Shown piece after piece: positions 30,867 to 45,877 of a DNA stretch of 50,547 bases (position 1 is the stretch's first letter; each line of letters starts with the position of its first letter). Where the stretch lies: positions 1 to 50,547 of the IMG/VR virus record IMGVR_UViG_3300044714_000169; one strand, 5' to 3'. The notes under the pieces are model-generated. The model was not told the DNA's origin. It was given only the letters and a program-made list of their open reading frames with translations, and did not search any database. Origin of the DNA: a virus. A program made the translations under genes and the position numbers.

Positions 30867-31961
30867 TTGATCGCGAATGTCAGCCGACTTCGACAGTTTC
30901 AAGCTTGTCGGGAGAAAGCGTATAACTGGGATGAGCTGAGATTAACTTCCTATCGTGATGCCGACCCGTTGATGATCGGAGAGGCCTATCACCGCGGTTC
31001 CGAGGTCTTAGCCAAACTGGGTGATATCGAAGCCGCGGTACAGGCAGCGGAAGACACCTTCCGGAAGCGGTTGGAAGGCCAAATGATCCTCCCGGAGGAA
31101 CGCCCTGAAATCGAGCGTGAGATCGAGTTTGTTCGGCATGCCACCCGAGCATGGGCAGCTCACTATGACACCGCCGACTTCAAGATTTTATGGCCGGAGG
31201 TTTCCGGGATGGTTCCGCTGCCAAATACGGAACATCACTGTTTCTTCGTCCATCGAATTCTCTATCCGAACGACCCTAATCCCGCTCACGCGCTGATGTG
31301 TATAGATGCGCGCTGTCGACAACCTCACTTCTTAAAATTCCGCACTGACGGAGTCCTCGAATTCTACCACAAAGTCTGGTTGCTGGAACAAAAGACGACT
31401 AGTTCCACCGCCCGAAACAACTTCTGGCCGAAGTGGAATATGGAATTTCAAGTCGGCTGTTACATGTACGGGGTTTGGAGAAAGACCGGCGTCCGTCCCT
31501 CCGGCGTCATGATCAACGCGATCATCAAACACTTCCAGCGGGATAACTCCCGAAAAACCGACAACGGTGGATACAAAATGAAGTTGGATCCCACCAACGT
31601 CGACTTCGAGCGGGAAGGCTTCGTCTACACCGAGGCGATGTTATTATCGTTCGAGAAAGATCTGATCGCTCAAGCTAACGAATACGAGGCTGCGTTCAGC
31701 AACCCGCTCAAAATCTTCCGAAACACCGATAACTGCTTCAACTACAACCGGGCTTGTTATTACTGGAACCGGTGTCAGAGAAAATACTCGGGCGAAACCA
31801 CCGTTGAAGTTGAAGGCGAATTCCGCGAACGCCCGAAAGACTACGTCGAGTTATCATACTACGAATTGTTGGGGTTACCAACCCCGGAACAAGGAGAAAC
31901 ATGTCAACCGAACGAAGCGAGTGTGAAGACTGCGGACTCGAATTCGACCCCAGTGAGTTAG
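30867..31961 (+). CDS. Cas4/RecB-like PD-(D/E)XK exonuclease with Fe-S cysteines
   Basis: A 364-aa protein from TTG 30867 after AGGAGG. The nuclease core is seen in KFRTDGVLEF and VWLLEQKTT (D ... E-x-K, about residues 160-180) and QVGCYMYG. One cysteine near the N terminus (FQACREK) and three near the C terminus (NCFNYNRACYYWNRC) form the pattern of the 4Fe-4S site of Cas4/AddB-type nucleases. It probably processes DNA ends during recombination or replication, working with the Sak4-like ATPase and DUF669-like protein downstream. Confidence 0.75.
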   Translation: MIANVSRLRQFQACREKAYNWDELRLTSYRDADPLMIGEAYHRGSEVLAKLGDIEAAVQAAEDTFRKRLEGQMILPEERPEIEREIEFVRHATRAWAAHYDTADFKILWPEVSGMVPLPNTEHHCFFVHRILYPNDPNPAHALMCIDARCRQPHFLKFRTDGVLEFYHKVWLLEQKTTSSTARNNFWPKWNMEFQVGCYMYGVWRKTGVRPSGVMINAIIKHFQRDNSRKTDNGGYKMKLDPTNVDFEREGFVYTEAMLLSFEKDLIAQANEYEAAFSNPLKIFRNTDNCFNYNRACYYWNRCQRKYSGETTVEVEGEFRERPKDYVELSYYELLGLPTPEQGETCQPNEASVKTADSNSTPVS

Positions 31962-32059
31962 ACGTCGACGGTCTTTGTCAAGAATGTCGAGATGGGGGTG
32001 ACGGAGTAGAAGAAGAAGAAGAAGAAGAAGAAGAACAGGAGGAAGAAGATGCCAGTTGA
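31901..32059 (+). CDS. Small zinc-ribbon protein with poly-Glu tract
   Basis: A 52-aa frame with AAGGAGAAAC before ATG 31901, overlapping the nuclease gene at its start and queC at its end. Cysteine pairs (CEDC, CQEC) form a small zinc ribbon, followed by a run of nine Glu coded by (GAA)9 and more acidic residues. It may bind a basic partner, or mainly serve to couple queC translation. Function unknown. Confidence 0.55.
   Translation: MSTERSECEDCGLEFDPSELDVDGLCQECRDGGDGVEEEEEEEEEQEEEDAS
32009..32035 (+). repeat. (GAA)9 trinucleotide repeat
   Basis: Nine perfect GAA units inside the poly-Glu coding region, ending 13 bases before the queC start. Copy-number changes would keep the zinc-ribbon frame but alter the spacing of the purine-rich region upstream of queC. 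Confidence 0.9.
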
Positions 32060-32726
32060 CCGAGTTTGCCTCTACTCAGGCGGGCTCGACTCTACCACGC
32101 TTCTTTGGAGTCTGCGCCCAAACGTGAAAGCCCTGCTCATCAACTACGGGCAACGCCACGCGGTCGAACTCGTCCACGCAGCCAAACTCTGTAACACGTT
32201 CGGGATCGATTATGAAACCGCGGATCTGTCGGGGATCAACCGACTAATCCATAAAGGTAGTCAATCAGGTGACGAACTTCCCCCCGATGGTCACTACGCC
32301 GAGGAAACGATGAAAACCACCATCGTTCCCAACCGAAATTCTATCATGTTATCAGTGGCTGTCGGTTGGGCGGTAGCAACCGGGTGTAAAGAAGTTTACT
32401 TCGCCGCCCACGCTGGCGATCACACGATCTACCCCGACTGCCGACGTCAATTCATCGACAAGTTTGCTGAAGCGATGATCGAAGCTAACTTATGGAACCC
32501 AGTTCTAGTTCGAGCGCCATTTGTCCTGATGAACAAATCCGATATCGTGAAGCTGGCCAATAACCTGGGCGTCCCCTTCCAGATGACCTGGAGTTGTTAC
32601 AAAGGTGACAAAATCCACTGCGGTAAGTGTGGAACCTGCACCGAACGGCGGGAAGCATTCCAGCTAGCCGATATCAACGACACTACCGAGTACGAGTATA
32701 CCGGACCGTTGATGGAGGCGAAGTGA
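32049..32726 (+). CDS. queC: 7-cyano-7-deazaguanine (preQ0) synthase
   Basis: A 225-aa protein. It converts 7-carboxy-7-deazaguanine to preQ0 using ATP and ammonia. The PP-loop SGGLDSTT (about residues 11-18) and the C-terminal zinc site SCYKGDKIHCGKCGTC are present, along with conserved VPNRNSIMLSVAVG and AHAGDHTIYPDCR. Length is normal for QueC. ATG 32049 follows AGGAGG. It is one of four preQ0-pathway genes in this operon and probably supplies base for DNA modification rather than tRNA. Confidence 0.92.
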   Translation: MPVDRVCLYSGGLDSTTLLWSLRPNVKALLINYGQRHAVELVHAAKLCNTFGIDYETADLSGINRLIHKGSQSGDELPPDGHYAEETMKTTIVPNRNSIMLSVAVGWAVATGCKEVYFAAHAGDHTIYPDCRRQFIDKFAEAMIEANLWNPVLVRAPFVLMNKSDIVKLANNLGVPFQMTWSCYKGDKIHCGKCGTCTERREAFQLADINDTTEYEYTGPLMEAK

Positions 32727-32926
32727 GCATCCTCGACCCCAAAAAAATCGCCCAATCAATCATCTCCGACCCAACCAAATGGGTGTTGATGAAATGTGGG
32801 TTTTGTGGTAACGTCGATCACTGGCGAGTCTTAATCAACGTCACCGGGGTTGTCTGTTGGTGTCAAAAGTGTCAGAAGAAGTACAAACTTGAATCCGATT
32901 CCGGGGTAAAGGTGATAGATGCCTAA
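32723..32926 (+). CDS. Small zinc-ribbon protein
   Basis: 67 aa from GTG 32723, overlapping the queC stop, behind GGAGGCG. Cysteine pairs CGFC and CWCQKC form a zinc ribbon. A longer in-frame start inside queC is not favoured. It directly precedes the permuted ATPase and may be a partner in recombination; no family recognised. Confidence 0.5.
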   Translation: MSILDPKKIAQSIISDPTKWVLMKCGFCGNVDHWRVLINVTGVVCWCQKCQKKYKLESDSGVKVIDA

Positions 32927-33677
32927 ATTTGCTACAGTCGCAATCGATAGTGTAGGAGAACTCGCTCGCCTCTTCTTCAGCAAGGACATGGGTAAGGGTG
33001 CAAACGACCGTGAAAAAATCCGCGCCATGCAGAACTATCCGGGCGCGACTGAACGGTTAAACATGCTCTGTCGATCGTTGAAACAAAAACGTGACAAGGG
33101 GGTGGAAATTGTCTTCACGGCTCATGAAGATATCGAAAAAGTATACGCTAGGGGCGGCGCCATGGCAGGGAAAGGTCAGGCACCTCCTGATCCAGTTGCT
33201 GTCAAGGGTTGGCCAGATGTCCCGGGTAAGAGGGCTCCCGACGAATTCTGCCGCGCGTGCGATAATGTACTCCGCGTACGTCGAGTTAATAACAGCCCCG
33301 CATGGATTGCTGCACGCGAATCAATCGGAGTTGGCGCGGATTACTGGGAGGTTAAAGACCGGTTTAACGGACCCGCAGTTAGAGCAGGCCTACTACCCGC
33401 CAACTACGAGGAGTTGAAAAAGTCCATCTGCGCGGTAAACCCAGGTTGGTGGCGAGCCCCTTACCTCTGGATGCTCTACGGCCCTTACGGAATCGGGAAG
33501 ACCCGCAGTTTGTTAAGCTTCCCCAAACCAATCTTCGTTATCGACCTCGACAAGGGAACAAAATCAATCACTGAGGAAGAAGCCAAATCCGCCCAAATGA
33601 CCATCGATCAATCTATCGACGTTGAGGAATCCGCCCACTACGACAGATTCTTCGGAATTTTGGAGGCAGCGTTCTAA
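32919..33677 (+). CDS. Sak4/AAA_24-like RecA-fold ATPase, apparently circularly permuted
   Basis: A 252-aa protein. Residues 1-165 hold what is normally the second half of the family: Walker B-like TVAIDSVGE (about 6-14), IVFTAHE (64-70), CDNVLRVRR and VKDRFNGP (about 146). Residues 170-252 hold what is normally the first half: the Walker A loop GPYGIGKT (188-195) and FVIDLDKGTKS (about 206-216). The C terminus (ILEAAF) would join naturally to the N terminus (PKFATVAID). An adjacent DUF669-like gene supports the recombinase role. Circular permutation is inferred; the ATG 32919 start has an AAGGTGA site. Confidence 0.72.
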   Translation: MPKFATVAIDSVGELARLFFSKDMGKGANDREKIRAMQNYPGATERLNMLCRSLKQKRDKGVEIVFTAHEDIEKVYARGGAMAGKGQAPPDPVAVKGWPDVPGKRAPDEFCRACDNVLRVRRVNNSPAWIAARESIGVGADYWEVKDRFNGPAVRAGLLPANYEELKKSICAVNPGWWRAPYLWMLYGPYGIGKTRSLLSFPKPIFVIDLDKGTKSITEEEAKSAQMTIDQSIDVEESAHYDRFFGILEAAF

Positions 33678-33678
33678 C

Positions 33679-33918
33679 TTGACCAAACTAGCCGACCACA
33701 TCCAAATCTCTCTCACGATTTCAGACGAACGTTGGCCTGAAATCACCCTCGTGGGTCAGCGGTCAGGGACCTGCGGAACCGCAGCCGCAATCACCCAAAA
33801 ACAGCAGTACGACCTAGCCTACGGAAAAGGCGAGGAAATGCTGCATAACCTGCTCAGACCGGCAGTCGACGAACTGATAAAACGTCGGAAAGGGCCCAAA
33901 TTAAACCCAGGAGAATAA
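33679..33918 (+). CDS. Small protein next to the ATPase, 79 aa
   Basis: TTG 33679 follows the ATPase stop by one base, with GGAGG some 13 bases upstream. The protein has a beta start (HIQISLTIS), a Gly/Thr loop (GQRSGTCGTAAAI) and a basic helical end. It could be an accessory part of the recombination module. Family not recognised. Confidence 0.45.
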   Translation: MTKLADHIQISLTISDERWPEITLVGQRSGTCGTAAAITQKQQYDLAYGKGEEMLHNLLRPAVDELIKRRKGPKLNPGE

Positions 33919-33919
33919 A

Positions 33920-34348
33920 ATGTTAAGAACAGAAGACATGTCGAAAGTTTCCGACTCCGACCTGATGAAGGAGGGTTGGTATCGGGTACGAATCAGTAAC
34001 GTGAAGGAAACCGACGATTCCGGGAATCAACTTCTCTCCAAAACCGGACAGGAACCAATCGTCGAGTTAACCTTGAAGGTTCAGAACGAGGGGGAGTTCT
34101 TCGGTCGTTCGTTTAAGGACAAACCCTCGCTGCAACCCCACGCGCTGTTCAAACTGAAGGCGTATTACAAAGCGGTTGGGTACGCGCCGGGACCGGAAGG
34201 CCACGATCCGGCAAAGCTGCTGGACGGGGAGGTTTGGGTATGGGTTAGCCCGGGTCAGTATCAGGGTCAACCGGTGTTAAACATCCCCCCGTATTCAATT
34301 CGTAGTTTGCAGGAAGGCGCCGGCGGTCCAGGCGGGAAGAAGAACTAA
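33920..34348 (+). CDS. DUF669-like ssDNA-binding candidate
   Basis: A 142-aa OB-fold-like protein. The pattern EGWYRVRISNVKETDDSGNQ...VELTLKV...KLKAYYKAVGY...LLDGEVWVWVSPGQY matches the layout of DUF669, proteins often next to Sak4-type ATPases and thought to bind single-stranded DNA. A Gly/Pro-rich tail ends the protein. An AGGAG site precedes ATG 33920. It probably acts with the upstream ATPase in single-strand annealing. Confidence 0.65.
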   Translation: MLRTEDMSKVSDSDLMKEGWYRVRISNVKETDDSGNQLLSKTGQEPIVELTLKVQNEGEFFGRSFKDKPSLQPHALFKLKAYYKAVGYAPGPEGHDPAKLLDGEVWVWVSPGQYQGQPVLNIPPYSIRSLQEGAGGPGGKKN

Positions 34349-34452
34349 TGTGGGCGCTCGTGTTGGTAATTAGTTACGGGGCTTTAGTCGTTTGGCTAGA
34401 GTCCCGTAGCGAGCGCAAGGAGAGGGAGAGGTGGAGGAAACGTGGAGATTAG
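34348..34452 (+). CDS. 34-aa single-span membrane microprotein
   Basis: A 34-codon frame that starts in the TAATG overlap with the DUF669-like gene and ends overlapping the queD start. A hydrophobic helix (MWALVLVISYGALVVW) is followed by a strongly basic tail (RSERKERERWRKRG), giving an N-out/C-in topology. Translation is plausible by coupling; function unknown. Confidence 0.45.
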   Translation: MWALVLVISYGALVVWLESRSERKERERWRKRGD

Positions 34453-34981
34453 CAAGGAATTTAAATTTGAGGCGAGTCACGTTTTACCAAACCACCCGGG
34501 TAAGTGTTCCAGACTTCACGGCCACTCCTGGGTGCTGAGAGTTGCGGTAACGGGTGAAGTCAACCGCGAAACCGGCTTCGTGATGGACTACGCTGATTTG
34601 AAGAAGTGTGTCCAGCCGATCGTCGACGCCCTAGACCACCGTCATCTAGGTACTTTCGCACTACCAGGAGGGCAAGCCCCTTTGGCACTTTACCAGTGGA
34701 AGCCTGAAGGCCCCGATATCCACTACCCGAACGAGATCTACCCCAGCTCCGAAAATCTCCTTTGGTGGATTGCGGGACAACTTCACGGCCTCGACCTTTA
34801 TCGGATCAAACGATTCAAACAAGATCCTGAAATTCGGTCTTTCCGACCTGGCGAGATTATCCCCTTCGAAGAGCGCGAGAAGATCGACGTCATCAGCCGG
34901 TGGTCCTACATCCAATTAAACGAAACTTGCACCTCATCAGCAATCTTATGCCGAGACGAATTTAATGCCCTACAACGCTGA
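34442..34981 (+). CDS. queD: 6-carboxy-tetrahydropterin synthase
   Basis: A 179-aa protein, second step of preQ0 synthesis (dihydroneopterin triphosphate to 6-carboxytetrahydropterin). It shows the zinc His in FEASHVLPNH, the CSRLHGHSW motif (C-x3-H-G-H with catalytic Cys) and the conserved Glu in YPSSENLLWW. GTG 34442 has GGAGG upstream. It overlaps a microprotein before it and the HNH gene after it. Confidence 0.9.
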   Translation: MEISKEFKFEASHVLPNHPGKCSRLHGHSWVLRVAVTGEVNRETGFVMDYADLKKCVQPIVDALDHRHLGTFALPGGQAPLALYQWKPEGPDIHYPNEIYPSSENLLWWIAGQLHGLDLYRIKRFKQDPEIRSFRPGEIIPFEEREKIDVISRWSYIQLNETCTSSAILCRDEFNALQR

Positions 34982-35288
34982 ACTGCAAATGCTGCGGGAA
35001 TTCTTCCTGTTGAACGCGCCACGAATACTCTGCGTGTTCTGCCATCTACCCATCTACCCACCTGAATTATCCAACCGATTAACCTTCGGGCATCGTCGCC
35101 ACACCAAAGTTCACTTTGCAAATTTCACGGTTCACCACGGAGACGGGAACCGTGAAAACAACACTGACCAGAATTTAAAAAACAGTCACAGCGACTGTCA
35201 CAAGCGTTATCACAAACAACTACTACTCCATGGAGGAACAAATGCCGTTAACAGCAGCCCAAATTCAACAGAAAGTCAACCAAGTTAA
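34965..35288 (+). CDS. HNH endonuclease
   Basis: A 107-aa protein. CVFCHLP, the VHHGDGNRENNTDQN stretch and CHKRYHKQ form a Cys-flanked HNH motif (about residues 22-85) binding a metal ion. It overlaps the end of queD by 17 bases. It may be a homing-type endonuclease that moved into the operon or a packaging-associated nuclease; no terminase gene is nearby, so a free-standing mobile nuclease is more likely. Confidence 0.72.
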   Translation: MPYNAELQMLREFFLLNAPRILCVFCHLPIYPPELSNRLTFGHRRHTKVHFANFTVHHGDGNRENNTDQNLKNSHSDCHKRYHKQLLLHGGTNAVNSSPNSTESQPS

Positions 35289-35550
35289 CAACTGGGTTAC
35301 CGCGATCGAGGGTAACGCCCACCAAACTGTCGCCTCGGCGATCAAGGGTATCGCCGGGATCATGGGAGATTTCGCCACCGATCTGTTGGAGGCGAAAGCG
35401 GCGTTGGCTGCGCTTCAGTCGAAGACACCCGGGCAAACCCCAGCACCGCCAACCAACCCAAATCCACCCGCAGCCAACCCGAACCCGAACCCAACGCCGG
35501 CACCGGCAGCTCAACCCAACGCGCAGACCCAACCAACAAAAACAGCCTAA
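35242..35550 (+). CDS. Small helical protein with Pro/Asn-rich tail
   Basis: 102 aa from ATG 35242 with TGGAGG upstream. Residues 1-60 are helical with an amphipathic pattern (VNQVNNWVTAIEGNAHQTVA; ATDLLEAKAALAALQSK). The last 40 residues are an extended PNPN/APAP-type linker, like a tail that binds SH3-like or structural partners. Function unknown. Confidence 0.5.
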   Translation: MPLTAAQIQQKVNQVNNWVTAIEGNAHQTVASAIKGIAGIMGDFATDLLEAKAALAALQSKTPGQTPAPPTNPNPPAANPNPNPTPAPAAQPNAQTQPTKTA

Positions 35551-35565
35551 GGGAGGAGGTTCCAG

Positions 35566-35616
35566 ATGGCAGGCAAGAAGAAGATGAAAAAGATGAAGGA
35601 CAAGAAGAAACACTAA
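35566..35616 (+). CDS. 16-aa lysine-rich microprotein
   Basis: A 16-codon frame with a very strong GGGAGGAGG site before ATG 35566. The peptide is MAGKKKMKKMKDKKKH, ten of sixteen residues Lys. It stands alone between the Pro-rich gene and queE and may bind nucleic acid. Short length keeps confidence modest, but the ribosome site is among the best in the window. Confidence 0.5.
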   Translation: MAGKKKMKKMKDKKKH

Positions 35617-35633
35617 CCGAAGGGAGATGATCC

Positions 35634-36362
35634 ATGTCTGATACGGGAGAGGTAAAATTACCGATTGCTGAAACCTTTCACTCGATTCAGGGTGAAGGAC
35701 AGTGGGTCGGTACCCCAATGCACTTTATTCGTCTTGCCGGCTGCCCAGTTGGACGACCTGCCAAAGTCGTGAAGGCGAGTGAGTTTGGGCCTCTCCCGCT
35801 TCTCCCTACCGGGGAACAGGCGATGGCCTGTGCAACGTGGGATGGGAGAGGGTTTTGGTGTGACACCGATTACAACAAGCATGAGGAGGTGCTGATCGAA
35901 CAGCTGTTAGCTGAAACCTGGGAGAAACACATCTGTCTGACTGGAGGAGAACCGTTAATCCACTGGAAGAAGTTGATCGGTGGACTCTTCCCCGGCGCTA
36001 TACGAGACGGGGTCAAAATCCATATTGAAACCTCGGGTACAGTTGACGTCGACTTCGGCCAAATGACGCAGAAGGCTGTAACCGACGTTGACTGGCAACT
36101 TTGGTTCACGTGCGCGCCAAAAATCAACTGTACCGATAACATGATCCGTCACTGCGATGAACTGAAGCTGTTGGTCGACGCCCGCTTCCACCCCGACGAA
36201 CTGACCGACAGTATGCGTAACCACCCTAACGTCTTTCTATGCCCAGTCAACAACGTCGACGACGTAAGACTCGACAACGTCGAGCGCGCGATGTTTTGGT
36301 TACAAAAATTCCCAAATTGGAGACTCTCGTGCCAAATGCACAAGTTCCTAAAAATGCGGTAG
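35634..36362 (+). CDS. queE: 7-carboxy-7-deazaguanine synthase (radical SAM)
   Basis: A 242-aa protein. It makes 7-carboxy-7-deazaguanine from 6-carboxytetrahydropterin. It shows the QueE start AETFHSIQGEGQWVGTPMHF, LAGCP, CATWDGRGFWCDTDY and LTGGEPLIH. The three cluster cysteines are spaced C-x28-C-x9-C, unlike the usual C-x3-C-x2-C. The variant is known in principle for QueE (a long first loop) but the second gap is also long. ATG 35634 has GGGAG. Confidence 0.88.
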   Translation: MSDTGEVKLPIAETFHSIQGEGQWVGTPMHFIRLAGCPVGRPAKVVKASEFGPLPLLPTGEQAMACATWDGRGFWCDTDYNKHEEVLIEQLLAETWEKHICLTGGEPLIHWKKLIGGLFPGAIRDGVKIHIETSGTVDVDFGQMTQKAVTDVDWQLWFTCAPKINCTDNMIRHCDELKLLVDARFHPDELTDSMRNHPNVFLCPVNNVDDVRLDNVERAMFWLQKFPNWRLSCQMHKFLKMR

Positions 36363-36772
36363 ACTGGAAAGGGGTTTGGGAGGTAATTTTCGGGATCTTC
36401 ACGATCCTAATCTTACTCAACCTGCTCCTAACCCCAGCCCACGCGCAAACAACCACCTGCCCTTCGCCAACCCCAGGTAGCCCGCACATCTGTTTAAAAT
36501 GGACAGATAGTACCACCGCCGGCGCTACCTACAACGTTTACCGCACAACCACCTCGGGAGCGGAAAATTACTCAACCCCACTTAATTCAACCCCGTTACC
36601 AGCGGGAACCACCGCATACTACGACTCAACCGTTGCAGTCGGGACCACGTATTACTACACGTTGGCCGCCGTCGGAACAGGAGGTGTATTGAGCACTCCG
36701 ACCGCTGAGGTCAGTGCTCAAATAACAGTGCCACCTAACACACCTACGGGGCTCAGCGTTTCGGTTGATTGA
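36329..36772 (+). CDS. Exported fibronectin type III domain protein
   Basis: 147 aa from GTG 36329 (GGAG six bases upstream), overlapping the queE end. Residues about 15-45 are a membrane/signal segment (WEVIFGIFTILILLNLLLTP) with an AHAQ cleavage site. The rest is one Fn3-type beta sandwich (CLKWTDSTTAGATYNVYRTT ... YYYTLAAVGTGG). A surface or periplasmic Fn3 protein made early could alter host adsorption or block superinfection. That role is inference. Confidence 0.65.
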   Translation: MPNAQVPKNAVDWKGVWEVIFGIFTILILLNLLLTPAHAQTTTCPSPTPGSPHICLKWTDSTTAGATYNVYRTTTSGAENYSTPLNSTPLPAGTTAYYDSTVAVGTTYYYTLAAVGTGGVLSTPTAEVSAQITVPPNTPTGLSVSVD

Positions 36773-36790
36773 CTGTGAGGTAACCTACTA

Positions 36791-37156
36791 ATGTTGTTGG
36801 ACTTCAGGAAACCGCAGGTAGCTATCGTCGAAAAGTTCGTCTCGCAAACTGGTAAATACCTCTGTTTCCTGGGCAATCATTACCACAAAGGTCATACCTG
36901 CTGGGTGTTCGGCTCTAGTAATAAGGTTACTGGGGAGATAGTTATGCGGCATTACTCTTCAGCCACCAACTCAATCAGTCCAAAAGCCGAGTGTGAAACC
37001 GCTTGGAGAAAGTTTAAGGAGGGGATGCTTGCCAAACCGAAATCGGACTTTGAAGAAGACACCCATATTACACGCCCTTGGGAGAAGGAACAAATCCGAC
37101 GCGGCGGTAGTCTCGCAGTTGCACTTGCAAAATCTAAGCGAGACAAACCCAATTGA
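36791..37156 (+). CDS. Protein of unknown function, 121 aa
   Basis: A small protein with a GAGG site before ATG 36791. Phrases such as GKYLCFLGNHYHKGHTCWVF and an acidic/basic C-terminal half give no recognised family. It overlaps the next gene in another frame by about 30 bases. Confidence 0.45.
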   Translation: MLLDFRKPQVAIVEKFVSQTGKYLCFLGNHYHKGHTCWVFGSSNKVTGEIVMRHYSSATNSISPKAECETAWRKFKEGMLAKPKSDFEEDTHITRPWEKEQIRRGGSLAVALAKSKRDKPN

Positions 37157-37439
37157 CAGATTTTACCGGATCGCGTCTGAGCTGTGCGATCTCCACCATA
37201 AGAAATCCTTAGACTACGGCACCGACGGAGATACCTACCAAAACTTCCGTGGATCGGCGAAGATGGGAATCGAACCCTGGAAGGGTGCTTTCATCCGACT
37301 GCAGGACAAAGTCCAACGAATCTGTAAATTCGCGAAAGACGGTAAGTTGGCCAACGAGTCCGTGATCGACAGTTTCTCCGACCTCGCCGTCTACGCGATC
37401 ATCTGTCGAATTCTGTTTGAAGAGGAGCAAGCTAAGTGA
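37125..37439 (+). CDS. DUF1599-like nucleotide-modification-associated protein
   Basis: The N-terminal start is uncertain: TTG 37119 or 37125 are likeliest, while ATG 36993 would overlap the previous gene by 160 bases. The core KKSLDYGTDGDTYQNFRG ... GAFIRLQDKVQRICKFAKDG ... ESVIDSFSDLAVYAIICR matches DUF1599 (nucleotide modification associated domain 1), a family often found in phages with modified nucleotides. It stands just before folE, four bases overlapping, within the 7-deazaguanine operon. Confidence 0.62.
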   Translation: MQNLSETNPIDRFYRIASELCDLHHKKSLDYGTDGDTYQNFRGSAKMGIEPWKGAFIRLQDKVQRICKFAKDGKLANESVIDSFSDLAVYAIICRILFEEEQAK

Positions 37440-37984
37440 ATCAACATCAGATTGAAAACGGGGTTACCCTAATCTTGAAGGGCTTGGGTTGCGACCCCAA
37501 AGACCACAACTACACCGATACACCCGAACGTTACGCAAAAGCCCTGCTCGAGATGTTCCAACCATCCGATACCGAATGGGCAACCTTCGAGGAGAACTTC
37601 AATGACTTCATCCTACTACGCGGGCATAAAATGTGGTCGCTTTGCCCGCACCATCTGCTTCCCGTCCACTTCACCGTTAGTCTCGCCTACGTACCTAACG
37701 GAAATGTTCTCGGGCTTTCGAAACTGGCACGGCTTCTGGATGAGTGCAATAACGGTCCCCTCCTCCAAGAAAGATTTACCAAACTGGCGGTGGATAAGGT
37801 TGGACAGGTATGTCCTGGGATTAAAGGAGCTGCATGTCTCGTTCATGGCACTCACTCCTGTCTTTCTATGCGTGGGGTTAAAAGCTCGGCAGACTTTGTC
37901 ACGTATAAGTTGGGTGGGGTGTTCGAATCAGACAGTTCGTTAGAGCAGAGATTTTTCACGTTGGCGCAGAGAAGGGAGGGTTAA
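37436..37984 (+). CDS. folE: GTP cyclohydrolase I
   Basis: A 182-aa protein, the first committed step: GTP to 7,8-dihydroneopterin triphosphate. It shows the zinc/active-site motif SLCPHHLLP (usual MCEHHLLP), AYVPNGNVLGLSKLARLLD and a C-terminal Cys/His region THSCLSMRGVKSSADF. The change Glu to Pro next to Cys (CPHH) is tolerated in the family in part. GTG 37436 overlaps the DUF1599 stop. Confidence 0.9.
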   Translation: MNQHQIENGVTLILKGLGCDPKDHNYTDTPERYAKALLEMFQPSDTEWATFEENFNDFILLRGHKMWSLCPHHLLPVHFTVSLAYVPNGNVLGLSKLARLLDECNNGPLLQERFTKLAVDKVGQVCPGIKGAACLVHGTHSCLSMRGVKSSADFVTYKLGGVFESDSSLEQRFFTLAQRREG

Positions 37985-37985
37985 A

Positions 37986-40418
37986 TTGGCCGAAATCGTC
38001 TGGGGTGAGGGACCCTTCTCCGCTCGATTAATCATCATCGGGCAGAATCCAGGTCCCGAAGAAATGGAACAAAATCGGCCGTTCGTCGGGGCCAGCGGGA
38101 GAATACTCGACCATGCGCTACAAAAAGTGGGAATTCGTCGCTCTGATTGCTTCATCACTAACGTTTGTAAGCATTTTATACCTCCTGGTCAACCAGTGCC
38201 CCCATTGCTGTTATCCGCGGACCGTCCAATGTTGGATAAAGAGCTCGGGATGCTCCACAACGCCCAGGTGATCTTAACCCTGGGAAAAGAAGCCTTCGAG
38301 TCGTTAACCTGGAAAGACCTCCAAATCCGCCACAACCGAAAGGGCGCGGAGAAGAAAAAGAACGCTTGGTTGCGCGGTTGCCCGTATCAATGGGGGAAAT
38401 ACTGGATCATTCCCGCTGTCCACCCTTCCTTCATCATGCGTACCGGCTTTATCGAGTCCCCACTATTTGAGGTTGACCTTGACCGCGCCCGTCGGTTCGC
38501 GTTCGAAGCAGCCCGACCCCCCGAGGATCACTACCATGACAACTGTACCGATCAAGAGATTCGAGATTACGTTAGACTTTGTGTTGACAGGAAAGAATGC
38601 GGACTTGACATCGAAACTCCTGAAACAACTGTCGACGATGACGACCTCGACCCGAGTATCGTCTCTCCTATCGACCTTATCGGATTGTCTGCGGAAATCG
38701 GAGAATCCGTCGGAGTTCGTCAAGATCAATTCGATCTCCTCCGACCACTCTTCGACGATACTTCTCGATACCCAGTCACTGTCTGGGGGCATAATTGCGG
38801 CGCTTTCGACTTCTACCACATCACCAAAACGTTAGGGTTTAAATTTGGAGGGATAAAGCGTGCTGACGCTATGCTGGGAATGCACTTGTTGTGGAGCCAC
38901 CTCACAAATAAAGACGCAGCTACCTGTTTCAGTATCTTCACGGATATCCCGTACTACAAGAACACCCGCAAGCTTGATCCTCACTTCTACGATACCATTG
39001 GAAATTGCCGAGACACCTATGGTGCACTTTGGGCGGGACGAAACATCCTGCGCGAAATGCGGAAACATCCTGGGATGGAGAGTCTGTTTTGGAACCATAT
39101 GATGGGTGCGGTAGACATCACCAACGAGTGGAGGGTGGTTGGAATCAACACCGACCAAAATCGAGCCGGTCGTGATCTGTTAGTCTGTGGGTTAGCACTA
39201 CAACAATACGAGGAAATCTGGAACAAACTAATGCCGTTTGTCAGCTGGTCTTCCCCCAAACAACTGATCGAACTATTTCGGAAACAAGGCCTGCCAATCT
39301 TCAAGCGAAAAAGGCCGGGAAAGAACGGTGGCCCACCCAAATTCACGGAGACATGTGATGACGACGCGCTCGAAATCTACGTTAAAAGGTTTAACAGTCA
39401 AATCGCCAAACTCGTTCAGGAAATGCGAGTCCTCGCGCACGCAGCCGACTTTCTCGATGTCGCTCGAGCAGATGGGCATGTGAGTCCACGATTTAAACTT
39501 GCTGGCCAGGTCGGTGGCCGAGTTCAGGCAGTTGATCCTGATCTCCAAAATATCCCGGAAACGATTGCTGGAGTATTCCCTCGAGCGATATACATTCCAG
39601 ATCGGCCAAGTGAACAAGTGTTTGGAATTACTGACTTCTCTCAGATTGAATACCGACTCTACGTCACCCAGGCCAAAGACCAAGCGGGGATCGATCAGAT
39701 AAACTCGGGAGACTACCTGTATGGCTTCTTCTACGAAGATATCTTCAAAGAACCGTTCTTTCTCCCCAACCGACCTCGATCCAAATCCAATATCGACCCG
39801 AACGTACCACCATGGAAACTTCTCGTTGCGAAGTCATGGCCGCTGGGATTTATCTACGGAAGAGGGGTCCCTGCTGCTACAGGTCTGCCAATTACTAACC
39901 GAGACTGTGAGCGTATTTACAGCAAGTTCCACCAAGACCATCCACGGATCCAGCCATTCCACACTGAATTGCTCTACACCGCTAGCCGGGTTGGTTACCT
40001 TCTTAGCCCATTTGGCCGCATGCGACGTTTTCCAAACAGCAAGGGGCAGAGAAACGAAATCCTCTCATTCCCCGGACAAGTGGTCGCAGTTGATGTCTTA
40101 TTCCGCAACGCACTGCTCCCGCTGCCAGAGATTCTTAAAGAGCGGTTCGGGGGCCGTCTACTCTTTAGCGTTCATGATTCCGTCGGCTGGTGCGTTAGGA
40201 AAGAGTTTGCCAAACAAGCTAGAGAAACCGTCGACGAAACCATGAGCGCGGCGCTGGCCGAGTTGGGAGGGCTACGGATACCCGTAGAAACAAAACTGGG
40301 TCCAAACTGGGGTGAAGCGAAACGATACGAGGTCTACTTTGGAAACACTAACTCCGCGCCAACAACTGGAACGCTTCCTCCAAATGTTGAATCGACAAGT
40401 TTGGGGGCGGGACAGTAA
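37986..40418 (+). CDS. DNA polymerase A with N-terminal uracil-DNA-glycosylase-like domain
   Basis: An 810-aa protein from TTG 37986 with AGGGAGGG upstream. Residues 1-185: UDG-like domain (GQNPGPEEMEQNRPFVGASG; AVHPSF). About 200-400: 3'-5' exonuclease (LDIETPE with Asp208/Glu210; WGHNCGAFDF; CRDTYGAL). About 480-790: family A polymerase with motif A ITDFSQIEYR (Asp550), motif B AKSWPLGFIYG (Lys616) and motif C SVHDSVGW (Asp731). The residue matching E. coli Pol I Phe762 is Leu620, and motif C has Ser where most have Glu. This is the replicative enzyme. Confidence 0.92.
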   Translation: MAEIVWGEGPFSARLIIIGQNPGPEEMEQNRPFVGASGRILDHALQKVGIRRSDCFITNVCKHFIPPGQPVPPLLLSADRPMLDKELGMLHNAQVILTLGKEAFESLTWKDLQIRHNRKGAEKKKNAWLRGCPYQWGKYWIIPAVHPSFIMRTGFIESPLFEVDLDRARRFAFEAARPPEDHYHDNCTDQEIRDYVRLCVDRKECGLDIETPETTVDDDDLDPSIVSPIDLIGLSAEIGESVGVRQDQFDLLRPLFDDTSRYPVTVWGHNCGAFDFYHITKTLGFKFGGIKRADAMLGMHLLWSHLTNKDAATCFSIFTDIPYYKNTRKLDPHFYDTIGNCRDTYGALWAGRNILREMRKHPGMESLFWNHMMGAVDITNEWRVVGINTDQNRAGRDLLVCGLALQQYEEIWNKLMPFVSWSSPKQLIELFRKQGLPIFKRKRPGKNGGPPKFTETCDDDALEIYVKRFNSQIAKLVQEMRVLAHAADFLDVARADGHVSPRFKLAGQVGGRVQAVDPDLQNIPETIAGVFPRAIYIPDRPSEQVFGITDFSQIEYRLYVTQAKDQAGIDQINSGDYLYGFFYEDIFKEPFFLPNRPRSKSNIDPNVPPWKLLVAKSWPLGFIYGRGVPAATGLPITNRDCERIYSKFHQDHPRIQPFHTELLYTASRVGYLLSPFGRMRRFPNSKGQRNEILSFPGQVVAVDVLFRNALLPLPEILKERFGGRLLFSVHDSVGWCVRKEFAKQARETVDETMSAALAELGGLRIPVETKLGPNWGEAKRYEVYFGNTNSAPTTGTLPPNVESTSLGAGQ

Positions 40419-41772
40419 ACTGTTTGAGGTCGCGTTGGAGTTTATCCAGACGCGGACTTCAAATTTAGAGATCAAAGACGACGAACGAGCACAACTGAAA
40501 CAAGCTTTCATGAAGGCGTTTCAGATGTCGGAGGAAGAATTACAGAATGCAACCACGAATTCAACTGGTGGAAACGGACACTCAACCCATAACGATATCG
40601 ACTCCGTCCGATCAGATGAAGAGCTTCAAAAAATCCTGCCAACTGGGGGGTTGCTACGTGACTATGTGGAATATACCTCACATAGCGAGGCTCCACTGGT
40701 CTACCACGTAATGTCTTTTTTGTGTGCAATTGGTGCTGTTATCAACCGTCGAATTTGGCTTGACATGGGCTACTATCGAGTGTTTCCCGCTATTGGAGTT
40801 ATCATCCTCGGCCCTTCAGGCATTAAGAAGACATCCGCGACTGACATTGTGGTTAGATTGCTCGGCGACGTCGGAACGGTCAAGCTCTATTCTGAAAAAC
40901 TTACACCGGAAGCACTTATCGAGGGGATGAAGGGAGATGCAACCGGACTTTTATACGCGCCCGAGATGACAGTCTTCCTGAACAAGGTTAAATACAACGA
41001 GGGGTTAATCCAGTTGATCACTCGTTTCATGGACTGCCCAGACCGTTGGGAGTCAGGTACAATCATGAGGGGTAAACATGCGCTTACTAACATCGCTATT
41101 AGCAGTCTTATGTGTAGTACCAGCGATTGGTTTATCCGGTCTACTCCTGCAGATAGCTTTGGAGGTGGGTTTATCGCCAGAAACCTCCTGGTTGTTCAAG
41201 AGTCTAGTTCTCGGTGCGAGCCTATACCTAATCCTGGTGATCCACGTATACGTGAAGGCATTATACAAGGTCTGGCTGGAATCCACTCGCTCGAAGGGGC
41301 GATGAGTTTTAGCCCGGCCGCGATGAAGTGTTACGTAGACTGGTATCGAGGAGAACATCAAGTTGAATCCAAGCAACCCGATCACGAGATCATGTCGACT
41401 TACTTTAACCGCAAGCCGGACCATATTAAAAGACTTGCAATCAGTCTGCATATGGCTGAGCATTCAAACTTTATTCTGTGTCTTGATTGCTTTGAGCGCG
41501 CCCTCTCTCTTCTCGACTGGTTGGAACAATTCATCCCCAAACTTCTGGAACAGATGTTTCGATCGTCTACTGGGGAAGAGTTGGAGCTGGTTTATCGAAT
41601 TATCCGACAACAGGGAACGATCGGTCACTCAGATCTCGTTAGGAAAGTTGGATACACGATGGACGCGCAGAGGGTGAAAGGGATTATCCTGTCGTTGAGG
41701 GAAGCTGGACAGGTAGTTGAGGTGAACGACCCGTTGTTTGGGCACAGTTACCAGGCGAAGGGTAACCGATGA
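40339..41772 (+). CDS. Helicase/primase-type ATPase (DUF3987-like)
   Basis: About 477 aa from TTG 40339 (GAGG five bases upstream); GTG 40312 is an alternative and both overlap the polymerase end. A P-loop GVIILGPSGIKKTSA lies about residues 155-170, LLYAPEMTVFL a likely Walker B, and CSTSDWFI a possible sensor. This pattern fits DUF3987-type phage helicase/primase-associated proteins. The C-terminal 100 residues carry a winged-helix-like part (TIGHSDLVRKVGYTMDAQRV). It probably unwinds DNA for the adjacent polymerase. Confidence 0.68.
   Translation: METLTPRQQLERFLQMLNRQVWGRDSKLFEVALEFIQTRTSNLEIKDDERAQLKQAFMKAFQMSEEELQNATTNSTGGNGHSTHNDIDSVRSDEELQKILPTGGLLRDYVEYTSHSEAPLVYHVMSFLCAIGAVINRRIWLDMGYYRVFPAIGVIILGPSGIKKTSATDIVVRLLGDVGTVKLYSEKLTPEALIEGMKGDATGLLYAPEMTVFLNKVKYNEGLIQLITRFMDCPDRWESGTIMRGKHALTNIAISSLMCSTSDWFIRSTPADSFGGGFIARNLLVVQESSSRCEPIPNPGDPRIREGIIQGLAGIHSLEGAMSFSPAAMKCYVDWYRGEHQVESKQPDHEIMSTYFNRKPDHIKRLAISLHMAEHSNFILCLDCFERALSLLDWLEQFIPKLLEQMFRSSTGEELELVYRIIRQQGTIGHSDLVRKVGYTMDAQRVKGIILSLREAGQVVEVNDPLFGHSYQAKGNR
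41078..41305 (+). CDS. Nested holin-like ORF inside the helicase gene
   Basis: A 75-aa frame in another reading frame of the helicase gene, with GAGGGG before its ATG. It would encode two transmembrane helices (LLTSLLAVLCVVPAIGL; LVLGASLYLILVIHVYV) and a basic tail, a holin-like topology. Such a regular membrane profile is unusual for a shadow frame, but nothing else supports expression. Confidence 0.25.
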   Translation: MRLLTSLLAVLCVVPAIGLSGLLLQIALEVGLSPETSWLFKSLVLGASLYLILVIHVYVKALYKVWLESTRSKGR

Positions 41773-41957: not shown

Positions 41958-42412
41958 TCGACGACTGGGATTACACCGCTCGCCAACTCGGATATAAAGA
42001 CGAGCGAGACCTGTTTCAACGACTCTACGTCGAAGAAGGTCGATCGATCAGTATGTTGGCGCAGATGTTAAAATCTGGTACCGCAACCATCAGCCGCCGA
42101 CTCGATATGCTCGAAATTTCAAAACGTCCACGTGGGGGAGATAACAACTCCGGCAGGCAGATGTACAAACTAACTCATCTAGACCAACGAGTCGTGTTAA
42201 CGTTGCCGTTAAACCTATTACCCGAATTAACCAAAATCAGCCGATCACTGTGGTATAAATATCGCCGTTTCCGAGGAGAACCGAATGGACTTCTGCATTT
42301 TATCACCACTAATGGGGTTGGAGAGGTACAGCCGATTATCGAACCACCATCTAATCCTCCCCCAGATCAAACACCCAAAATACATCAAATTCTACCAGGA
42401 GAGGAAGGCTGA
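41954..42412 (+). CDS. Helix-turn-helix regulator-like protein
   Basis: A 152-aa protein. Residues about 20-55 form a helix-turn-helix (LYVEEGRSISMLAQMLKSGT, ATISRRLDMLEI) and are followed by basic residues. The last 42 residues are Pro/Ile-rich and lie in the 128-base overlap with dpdA in another frame. It probably controls phage or host genes. Confidence 0.5.
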   Translation: MIDDWDYTARQLGYKDERDLFQRLYVEEGRSISMLAQMLKSGTATISRRLDMLEISKRPRGGDNNSGRQMYKLTHLDQRVVLTLPLNLLPELTKISRSLWYKYRRFRGEPNGLLHFITTNGVGEVQPIIEPPSNPPPDQTPKIHQILPGEEG

Positions 42413-43061
42413 AGGTGACCACATTCTACTTGACAATGGAGCATACGAAGGGGAGGTTAACCCGACTGAACTGGTTGACTCGATCAAACTTTATTCACCT
42501 AATGTGGTGGTACTACCTGACAAACTGTTGTCGGAGTGGGAGATTACCTGGCGAATGTCATCCGACTTCCTGGACCGATACGGAGATCAATTTGATTGTG
42601 AATGGGCGTATTGCCCTCAATCAACCCCAGATGATATCCTGGGATGGGTTGAAGGCCTCGTACACGCTCTCCAAGATTCGAGAATCAGTTGGATTTGTCT
42701 GCCACGAGCTTTGGGTACTCACATTACCCATGACCCTTTCATACGAGCGAACGTTTGTTCCCGTATCCGAAGTCTTGGCAAAAAAGTACACGCCTTGGGA
42801 ATGTTATCGGGGTCAGTGGCGGAACTTAAACCTCTCCGAGCTGCGGGTTGTAATTCAATTGATTCAGCAGCGCCGGTCTGGAGAGGATTATGTGGATGGA
42901 AGTTGGGGGCACCAGAGAGGTGGCCAGAAGTTGAGGTTGAGTGGGAGTTAGATACCTGGCTCCGTCCTGACTGCGCGATTCCGGTTGGCCCGATTGACGA
43001 GATTATCTTATCAAACCTGGAGGCATGTGGTGTCAACGTTAGTGTTAGGCGCGGAGTATAA
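42285..43061 (+). CDS. dpdA: 7-deazaguanine DNA transglycosylase (DpdA-like)
   Basis: A 258-aa protein from ATG 42285 with GAGGAGA upstream. It has the tRNA-guanine-transglycosylase-like pattern seen in phage DpdA: ILLDNGAYEGE (first Asp), VVVLPDKLL, WICLPRALG, KKVHALGM and AGCNSIDSAAPVW with a second Asp that may be the nucleophile. It lacks the TGT zinc site and PUA domain. It would exchange guanine in DNA for preQ0. The gene set folE, queD, queE and queC in the same operon supports this. Substrate is inferred. Confidence 0.75.
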   Translation: MDFCILSPLMGLERYSRLSNHHLILPQIKHPKYIKFYQERKAEGDHILLDNGAYEGEVNPTELVDSIKLYSPNVVVLPDKLLSEWEITWRMSSDFLDRYGDQFDCEWAYCPQSTPDDILGWVEGLVHALQDSRISWICLPRALGTHITHDPFIRANVCSRIRSLGKKVHALGMLSGSVAELKPLRAAGCNSIDSAAPVWRGLCGWKLGAPERWPEVEVEWELDTWLRPDCAIPVGPIDEIILSNLEACGVNVSVRRGV

Positions 43062-44147: not shown

Positions 44148-44564
44148 CTAGTTTTGTGGAACTACTAACGGTTTAACAACCTGTTTGGGGGTTTCCTCCT
44201 GCTGCGCCCGCATAGCTGCTTGAGCGATCGGGCGTTGAGACAACTGAATCTCGGAGAAGTGTTGTACCCCATAACTCGTTGCCCAATGCCATAACCCCGC
44301 GATCACCACACTCCAAGCGGGGATGTTGATTAAGAGTTGGTGGCCTGTACCAGCCGGCGACCAAACCCAGCTAACACCCAATGTACCGATCCCGCTCAAA
44401 ACGATTCGAGCAGCTACGTTTAGTTTGCTGGTGTAATAACTGACCCAAGGGATAGCTTTAGTCCGCTTGGCGAAGTCTAACAAATAAGCGGATAGGATAG
44501 CGACACCCACGCTAGTGGGGATTGTAGGTGCCGCAGGAGCTAACGTGTTAGTGTCGAAAAACAT
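44148..44564 (-). CDS. Holin-like membrane protein
   Basis: A 138-aa protein with GGAGGGAAC before ATG 44564, overlapping the ATP-grasp stop (TAATG). Three hydrophobic segments are visible, about 18-35, 50-70 (ARIVLSGIGTLGVSWVW) and 77-95 (NIPAWSVVIAGLWHWA), and the C-terminal 35 residues are charged and Gln-rich. Topology and position next to the endolysin fit a holin. Confidence 0.6.
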   Translation of the reverse strand: MFFDTNTLAPAAPTIPTSVGVAILSAYLLDFAKRTKAIPWVSYYTSKLNVAARIVLSGIGTLGVSWVWSPAGTGHQLLINIPAWSVVIAGLWHWATSYGVQHFSEIQLSQRPIAQAAMRAQQEETPKQVVKPLVVPQN

Positions 44565-45877
44565 TATGGGTTCCCTCCTACTTCGTGCAAAACGTTGTGT
44601 TCGGCTCCAATCAACTCCATCAGTTTGTTGTAGTCTTGGTAGATCTGATTGACCGCATCCGTCCGAAATTGTTTTTCTGGTATCCGGGCCTTGTTTACCA
44701 ACTCACTCGGCCCTTCAAACGCTTCCTGGATCGTTCGACCCTTCCCGGTAGCGCACAACAAATTCCCGTAGGCAGACGTCGTGACCAACTTATTGGTCTC
44801 GTCAAACATCACGTCGAAAAAATACAGGTGCTCCCTATCGGTCCGGGTAAACCCGCGAACCGGAATCCCCGCAACCGGTTTAAACTGCTCAGAAGGGTGA
44901 GGGGGAACAGTCAGCCTCAAACCCGCGGCGAAACCATGGCCTAGTTCCATCCGCTCTGGCTGTTCTCCCCTCGCCATCTTGGCGATGAGCTCGCCAAGAT
45001 CCTCGTTAACCAATTCCAATATCGTTGGGAAGGCGTCGTAACCCATCCGCGGGGTAAATTCAAGCGCCCAAACCCCCTCTGAATTGACGATTGTGTTTAG
45101 GTCAACCGGACCTATATGACCGTATTCGGCTAAAATCGGTTCGAACAGCCGAATCCCCTGCTCAACAACGTGGTCGTGTTCACACTTCCAAACCACGTTA
45201 AAAGCGCAACCGGTCGACGGACCCAAGTCATCATTCATCATCGCCTTGTGCTCGATTGTGTGGTTGAACGGCTCCATAAACTTTTCACCGTTAAACCAAC
45301 CTTCGGTAGAGACGGCAACGCCTTTCACATGGCGTTGAAGTTCAAACTCGGGTGAGTGTTTCGCAGCCGACTCAAAATAATCCAACATCGCGATCATGTC
45401 TTCGGTGTCGTAGGCGGAGTAAGTTTGAACCTCCGAATCCTTAGCTAACTCCCCGGAGGCTTTGAAGACGAGTCGGGTGTTGACCCGTCTGGCGTATTTT
45501 CTCCCTTCCTCCCAGTCGAAGAAGGTTTTGGTTTCTGGAAACCTAACCCCCGCTTGTTCCAATAACTCGAATGCAAGTGAGCGATCAAGTTCAATCTGAT
45601 CAGCAAATACAGAACCAGCCCAAGTGAAGTGACCACGAGCACGCAAGCGATCAGCAGTTTTTCCTCCGCCAGAGGAATCAAACAGAACAATGGTTTTATC
45701 GTCAAGGTAATTCTCCCAGTTGGCGGCGGAGTCCAACTTCTGTAAAAGCCCGTTGTAATTGTCTTTAGTTCGGGTGTCACGGCAGTTGACCGCGACCAAA
45801 TGTCCGGCTTGGCGCAAGCGAAGTGCCAACCCGTAACCTTCACCTGAACCCGAAAGCATCAGAAATTTCTCAGCCAC
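44564..45877 (-). CDS. PurD-like ATP-grasp ligase
   Basis: A 437-aa protein from GTG 45877 (AAGGAG upstream). It has the ATP-grasp layout of phosphoribosylamine-glycine ligase: an N-terminal Rossmann-like part (FLMLSGSGEGYGLALRLRQA), the ATP-binding TRLVFKASGEL, and the metal-binding GPVDLNTIVNSEGVWALEFT followed by RMGYDAFPT. Its strange place between endolysin and holin suggests a role in late modification or lysis rather than purine synthesis. True substrate unknown. Confidence 0.72.
   Translation of the reverse strand: MAEKFLMLSGSGEGYGLALRLRQAGHLVAVNCRDTRTKDNYNGLLQKLDSAANWENYLDDKTIVLFDSSGGGKTADRLRARGHFTWAGSVFADQIELDRSLAFELLEQAGVRFPETKTFFDWEEGRKYARRVNTRLVFKASGELAKDSEVQTYSAYDTEDMIAMLDYFESAAKHSPEFELQRHVKGVAVSTEGWFNGEKFMEPFNHTIEHKAMMNDDLGPSTGCAFNVVWKCEHDHVVEQGIRLFEPILAEYGHIGPVDLNTIVNSEGVWALEFTPRMGYDAFPTILELVNEDLGELIAKMARGEQPERMELGHGFAAGLRLTVPPHPSEQFKPVAGIPVRGFTRTDREHLYFFDVMFDETNKLVTTSAYGNLLCATGKGRTIQEAFEGPSELVNKARIPEKQFRTDAVNQIYQDYNKLMELIGAEHNVLHEVGGNP

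Follow-up and report, generated by a model that had tools for sequence, protein, structure and literature searches.

Few ATPase folds are as old and as well conserved as the RecA core, for which the order of the strands is regarded as a defining feature. In the Sak4 annealing proteins of phages, described as RadB-like (PMC5928155), the elements of such a core start with Walker A, followed by the second strand, Walker B, a TAHE-like strand, and the K(D/N)R motif. Sak4 from phage HK620 binds single-stranded DNA and anneals strands in an ATP-dependent manner; the neighboring DUF669 SSB stimulates this activity, and sak4 genes mostly adjoin a DUF669 ssb gene (PMC5928155). Natural permutation of a P-loop NTPase core has been reported for the circularly permuted GTPases RsgA/YjeQ and RbgA/YlqF (PMC6912228), and permutation is also known in DNA methylases (PMC10853773).

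The DNA analyzed here, referred to as the window, is a stretch of 50,547 nucleotides from IMG/VR record IMGVR_UViG_3300044714_000169, a metagenome-derived virus; coordinates are window positions unless they follow the handle of another contig. The window harbors a complete and intact open reading frame of 252 codons, designated cpSak4 (Table 1). In the encoded protein, the Walker B, TAHE, and VKDRF motifs come first, and the Walker A loop and the following strand come last. This swapped order, proposed in the original prediction, was confirmed by the translation, by the matches to the AAA_24 and PHROG_124 profiles, and by its recurrence in at least 18 other contigs, which places it far beyond chance. 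The residues of the Walker A and Walker B motifs are intact (GPYGIGKT and TVAIDS), and D211 and G213 of the strand following the P-loop helix are nearly invariant in the family alignment. Since TGA-TAG is present in frame immediately 5' of the ATG codon of cpSak4, an upstream in-frame extension harboring a Walker A motif is impossible. A second Sak4-like ORF was not found elsewhere in the window record.

Table 1. Positions of cpSak4, of its sequence motifs, and of its conserved neighbors in the window.
Feature	Positions	Strand	Basis
cpSak4, circularly permuted Sak4/probable RecA-core ATPase, 252 aa	32919..33677	+	ORF, Pfam AAA_24, PHROG_124, rotated scans, orthologues
TVAIDSV (Walker B strand), aa 6-12, here N-terminal	32934..32954	+	Translation; predicted strand 6-10; PHROG_124 profile from position 108
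IVFTAHE strand/motif, aa 64-70	33108..33128	+	Translation; predicted strand 63-69; family-conserved
VKDRF motif, aa 145-149; located C-terminally in ordinary Sak4	33351..33365	+	Translation, alignments
Walker A (P-loop) GPYGIGKT, aa 188-195, relocated to the C-terminal third	33480..33503	+	Translation; residues 184-234 match AAA_24 profile 5-57
FVIDLDKG, strand following the P-loop helix, aa 206-213	33534..33557	+	Family alignment, model
C-terminal helix YDRFFGILEAAF, aa 241-252	33639..33674	+	L057 aligned by HMM through the junction
PD-(D/E)XK nuclease, conserved upstream neighbor	30867..31961	+	Pfam PF12705, 2e-7; used as search bait
QueC, conserved upstream neighbor	32049..32726	+	Pfam, 2.5e-57
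Small conserved ORF, 79 aa from TTG, between cpSak4 and SSB	33679..33918	+	Counterparts in L001, L002, L056, and L057
DUF669-like/phage SSB-like protein, usual Sak4 partner	33920..34348	+	Family alignment matches

Two family profiles matched native cpSak4, each as two stretches. The best stretch for Pfam AAA_24 (PF13479; 4.5e-14) aligned residues 184–234 with profile positions 5–57, and the best stretch for PHROG_124 ('Sak4-like'; 2.6e-21) aligned residues 3–150 with positions 108–236. Scanned separately, the N and C halves matched positions 64–140 and 5–58 of AAA_24, respectively, and positions 108–236 and 43–96 of PHROG_124. Comparison of each half with AAA_24 thus gave complementary ranges in reverse, in agreement with the original prediction. 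Judging from these alignments, the two halves of cpSak4 are complementary parts of a single family assembled in the reverse order.

A rotated sequence was obtained by placing residues 165–252 ahead of residues 1–164. Rotation led to a single collinear stretch and increased the score from 77.4 to 86.7 bits for PHROG_124 (2.6e-21 to 3.9e-24) and from 53.2 to 61.2 bits for AAA_24 (curated cut-off of 27). A gain and a single stretch were likewise obtained upon rotation of the relative encoded by L001. All rotations were also scanned with a profile built from 12 ordinary Sak4s of phages. For cpSak4, the top-scoring single domain reached 34.3 bits in the native order and 76.6 bits at rotation 164. 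The optimum was located at 156–176 for all 11 permuted proteins tested, and rotation provided no gain (at most 0.6 bit) for seven ordinary Sak4s analyzed by leave-one-out. In tblastn searches of 50,697 phage records (E-value of at most 10), the rotated query matched 303 records, nine of which covered at least 80% of it in one piece, versus 40 and none, respectively, for the native query; most of the native order was covered by no record of this set. An apparent permuted match in Bifidobacterium phage BitterVaud1 (H68, residues 121–227 in one piece) was rejected as an unrelated protein devoid of a P-loop. Searches of isolate phages revealed no permuted copy, the plasmid collection provided chance-level partial matches only and no permuted copy, two scans of bacterial and archaeal genome contigs revealed no relative of cpSak4, and the search of PDB sequences returned a chance hit only.

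The PHROG_124 match is significant, the AAA_24 score exceeds its curated cut-off, and a DUF669-type SSB gene is adjacent. In addition, the 252-residue protein comprises the RecA core only, without the RecA C-terminal domain, and its secondary-structure elements follow those of the core in rotated order. The motif order of ordinary Sak4 is absent, being rotated instead. Because cpSak4 departs from ordinary Sak4 in this respect and agrees with it in the other testable ones, it was filed as a permuted variant rather than as an ordinary member of the family.

IMG/VR was scanned directly and with neighboring genes as bait, including the gene for the PD-(D/E)XK nuclease, and then with profiles of each half. 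The permuted architecture was detected in at least 18 contigs besides the window, originating from other metagenomes. Full permuted copies were present in L001, L004, L005, L006, L007, L014, L050, L051, L053, L054, L055, L076, and L077. Three copies were contig fragments, two of which (L002 and L016) cover the region from VKDRF to the P-loop and one (L046) the permuted start only. Two additional copies had a broken reading frame. In L056, the gene is split by a single in-frame TGA (L056:10078-10080) at a position occupied by a Trp codon in L050, which may correspond to a nonsense mutation, to recoding, or to an error. In L075, a frameshift is located shortly after the start of the gene (L075:10670-10745), the remainder of which is intact.

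Protein identity with cpSak4 was 79% for the short fragment of L046 and at most 67% for full-length copies, the lowest value being 40%. The start of the chain always precedes the Walker B strand by a few residues (e.g. M-PKFATVAIDS and M-APKYKTVAFDS), and the chain ends on the helix located after the second strand, both end points being conserved. The dN/dS values were 0.018/1.085 for the pair L053-L054, 0.097/1.92 for L053-L055, and 0.088/1.21 for L006-L007, and the intact permuted copies are under strong purifying selection. The gene is neither an artifact of assembly nor dead, as shown by the occurrence of divergent copies with the same end points together with this selection. The permutation itself is demonstrated.

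Contig L057 (IMGVR_UViG_3300010361_000017) encodes a Sak4 in the ordinary order (L057:9804-10748), i.e. the P-loop followed by Walker B, TAHE, and VKDR. Its neighborhood is the same as that of the window, PDDEXK-QueC-Sak4-small ORF-DUF669 SSB-QueD-QueE-FolE-UDG/PolA. The permuted-family profile as written matched the protein in two swapped pieces (domains of 30.5 and 82.3 bits), whereas the rotated family profile matched it as one domain (126.2 bits), in which the new N/C junction was crossed with a single one-residue gap. The counterpart in L057 of the C-terminal helix YDRFFGILEAAF leads straight into the Walker B strand. The claim that the C-terminal end of cpSak4 runs into its N-terminal start, as in a true circular permutation, was therefore borne out by a non-permuted orthologue. 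Since L057 is collinear through the junction and is located in the same neighborhood, the permutation happened in place.

Scanned with the ordinary Sak4 profile, L057 scored 28.3 bits both ways; the absence of gain over the native order is consistent with its normal arrangement. A search for further non-permuted relatives returned L057 itself only, and the sister of the permuted family is a single contig. In a tree built from rotated sequences, a branch (89/94) had the permuted proteins on one of its sides. L057 grouped with the permuted proteins (98/96), separately from 15 further Sak4-like proteins, although its long branch calls for caution. With the same caution, the simplest reading is a single in-place permutation within this lineage.

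As originally predicted, a DUF669-like gene lies by cpSak4, as in ordinary Sak4 modules, with one small ORF intervening. This small ORF had no Pfam or PHROG match. The SSB family alignment matched PHROG_378 SSB for seven of nine members (best value of 4.1e-9) and Pfam DUF669 for eight of nine (best value of 5.9e-7); the window copy alone displayed a weak DUF669 match (0.086). A small Cys-rich, zinc-ribbon-like ORF (32723-32926) is located directly upstream of cpSak4, which it overlaps. A link between this ORF and the Cys/His-rich N-terminal extension present in the Sak4 of L057 (L057:9804-9920) is speculative.

The region 32049-38000 contains a complete preQ0-type gene set, comprising, in addition to QueC, QueD (34442-34981), QueE (35634-36362), and FolE (37436-37984), which suggests the presence of 7-deazaguanine in the phage DNA. 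The product of ORF 42285-43061 resembled TGT/DpdA by eye and had no Pfam or PHROG match. A family A DNA polymerase (37986-40418; Pfam UDG, 1.6e-22; DNA_pol_A, 1.6e-25) carries an N-terminally fused uracil-DNA glycosylase domain, an arrangement that is kept in relatives. The DUF3987 primase/helicase-like protein (40312-41772) has the P-loop GPSGIKKT, i.e. the Gly-to-Lys variant of some permuted Sak4s. Finally, an ATP-grasp-like protein is encoded on the minus strand (44564-45877), its GARS_A match (5.1e-5) being under the Pfam cut-off.

Structure prediction by AlphaFold, based on the family alignment, provided a confident model of the permuted protein (mbc73697cab91; pLDDT 77.7, pTM 0.79). The order of strands and helices was that predicted for a rotated RecA core, residues 72–106 being poorly predicted. 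The model of L057 was much poorer (pLDDT 48.9, pTM 0.55). Foldseek, which requires sequential order, was used with a threshold of E ≤ 0.001. No match to the permuted model was found in the PDB or in BFVD, as expected for a permutation. In contrast, the L057 model had 57 PDB matches, RAD51 being the first (9.3e-7) and KaiC and RecA being also present. A sequential match to solved structures of the RecA/RAD51 fold was thus obtained for L057 and not for the permuted model. The original prediction was to be abandoned if structural comparison placed the motifs in the normal order, and the comparison did not do so. At the level of these models, the contrast fits a RecA core that would be new in its connectivity and not in its parts.

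Misassembly was the first concern raised with the original prediction, as the window is a metagenome-derived record in which two pieces of an ordinary Sak4 gene could have been misjoined within one contig. However, the same architecture and end points were found in at least 18 contigs of separate metagenomes, at 40–79% protein identity, and synonymous divergence is high between pairs of permuted copies. Given these independent divergent copies, a chimera appears to be refuted in effect, and we assign it a negligible probability. A very improbable, if slightly less remote, explanation is that cpSak4 consists of two unrelated parts, a Sak4-middle-like N-terminal domain fused to a separate P-loop domain, acting as two domains or in trans. 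The native protein does match the profiles as two separate stretches, but both halves match the same two families over complementary ranges, the rotation optimum is specific, and the model is single and compact (pTM 0.79). In addition, the match of L057 to the rotated family profile continues through the junction as a single domain. The related possibility of an upstream Walker A domain, also envisaged at the outset, failed in view of the upstream stop, the lack of a second Sak4-like ORF in the window record, and the collinearity of L057 with the rotated profile.

A distinct explanation accepts the permutation and questions catalysis: cpSak4 might be devoid of ATPase activity and act as a scaffold or regulator (e.g. 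an SSB-binding or recombination-mediator protein), catalysis being dispensable. Unusual P-loops are indeed present in several relatives, GTIGMEKT in L050:4519-5367 and L056:9670-10458, GVFGIKKT in L053:7216-8001 and L054:9696-10478, and GKVKIGKT in L051:9118-9912. A glycine of the loop is replaced in L050, L053, L054, and L056, as well as in the non-permuted L057 (GEYGTWKT). Part of the family may therefore use ATP poorly or not at all, and ATP turnover may vary among its members. In agreement with this possibility, a Walker A mutant of PA73 Sak4 retained some recombineering, according to work cited in PMC5928155. However, the Lys and Thr residues are retained in every copy covering the loop, the canonical GxxGxGKT is present in the window and in most relatives, and purifying selection is strong. 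The P-loop of the DUF3987 protein encoded by this phage likewise ends in GIKKT, so that this variant seems to be tolerated. Loss of ATPase activity is, in our view, unlikely.

Thus, cpSak4 is very probably a naturally circularly permuted Sak4, i.e. a RecA-core single-strand-annealing ATPase expected to work with a DUF669-type SSB. In the ancestor, the P-loop and then the second strand would have preceded Walker B, TAHE, and VKDRF, as in ordinary Sak4, and the segment extending from the P-loop through its helix to the second strand would have been shifted to the 3' terminus of the gene. The likely route is a tandem duplication of the gene, after which the first copy would have lost its 5' part and the second its 3' part. 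This duplication-and-trimming route is based on general knowledge of circular permutation. No DNA repeat marking the remnant of a duplicated gene was found beyond a GAA tract, nor was a remnant copy. The new termini are located in the loop preceding the Walker B strand, the old termini being bridged by about 35–40 residues after VKDRF. The chain is expected to refold to the same core, with K194 and T195 of the P-loop facing D10 of Walker B and ATP bound. By analogy with HK620 Sak4 (PMC5928155), cpSak4 would bind ATP, load on single-stranded DNA covered by the adjacent DUF669-type SSB, and anneal complementary strands in phage replication and recombination.

The original prediction knew of no permuted Sak4, and none was found in the open-access papers searched, which contained no report of a permuted Sak4, RecA, RAD51, AAA, or P-loop ATPase; papers on permutation among them concerned methylases, GTPases, or Rossmann folds. 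To our knowledge, there is no permuted member of the RAD51, RadB, KaiC, and RecA group. We consider it an even chance that cpSak4 is the first described natural circular permutation of a RecA/RAD51/KaiC-class ATPase core, having become fixed in a lineage of phages of which a non-permuted sister survives at the same locus, and that the new termini, next to the Walker B strand, alter the coupling of subunits or SSB to ATP. These observations also call attention to the fact that sequential structure searches miss permuted proteins, as Foldseek returned nothing, and that profile tools report them as two fragments. Other permuted recombinases may therefore hide among hypothetical proteins.

Comparison with known systems defines the position of cpSak4. 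All recognizable core motifs, a similar length, and the adjacent DUF669/SSB gene are common to cpSak4 and to the Sak4 annealing proteins of PHROG_124 (phages HK620, PA73, and PaMx42), but the halves are swapped and identity to annotated phage Sak4s is about 22–30% even after rotation. Likewise, both halves match AAA_24 (PF13479), but as two reversed stretches. RAD51, RadB, KaiC, and RecA have the fold matched by the non-permuted L057 model, whereas sequential comparison of the permuted model with solved structures gave no match. RsgA and RbgA, characterized by the motif order G4-G5-G1-G2-G3, are TRAFAC GTPases acting on ribosomes, which belong to another class, have another cut point, and lack a RecA-type core; no Pfam or PHROG GTPase family matched cpSak4 at E ≤ 1, the matches being to AAA_24/Sak4. 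The L057 orthologue, its nearest relative in the tree, has the same neighborhood and motifs and differs by its ordinary order, its N-terminal Cys/His-rich extension, and its imperfect P-loop. The permuted family and this unpermuted orthologue at the same locus constitute a before-and-after pair for asking whether the order of the elements matters for folding, ATP coupling, and annealing.
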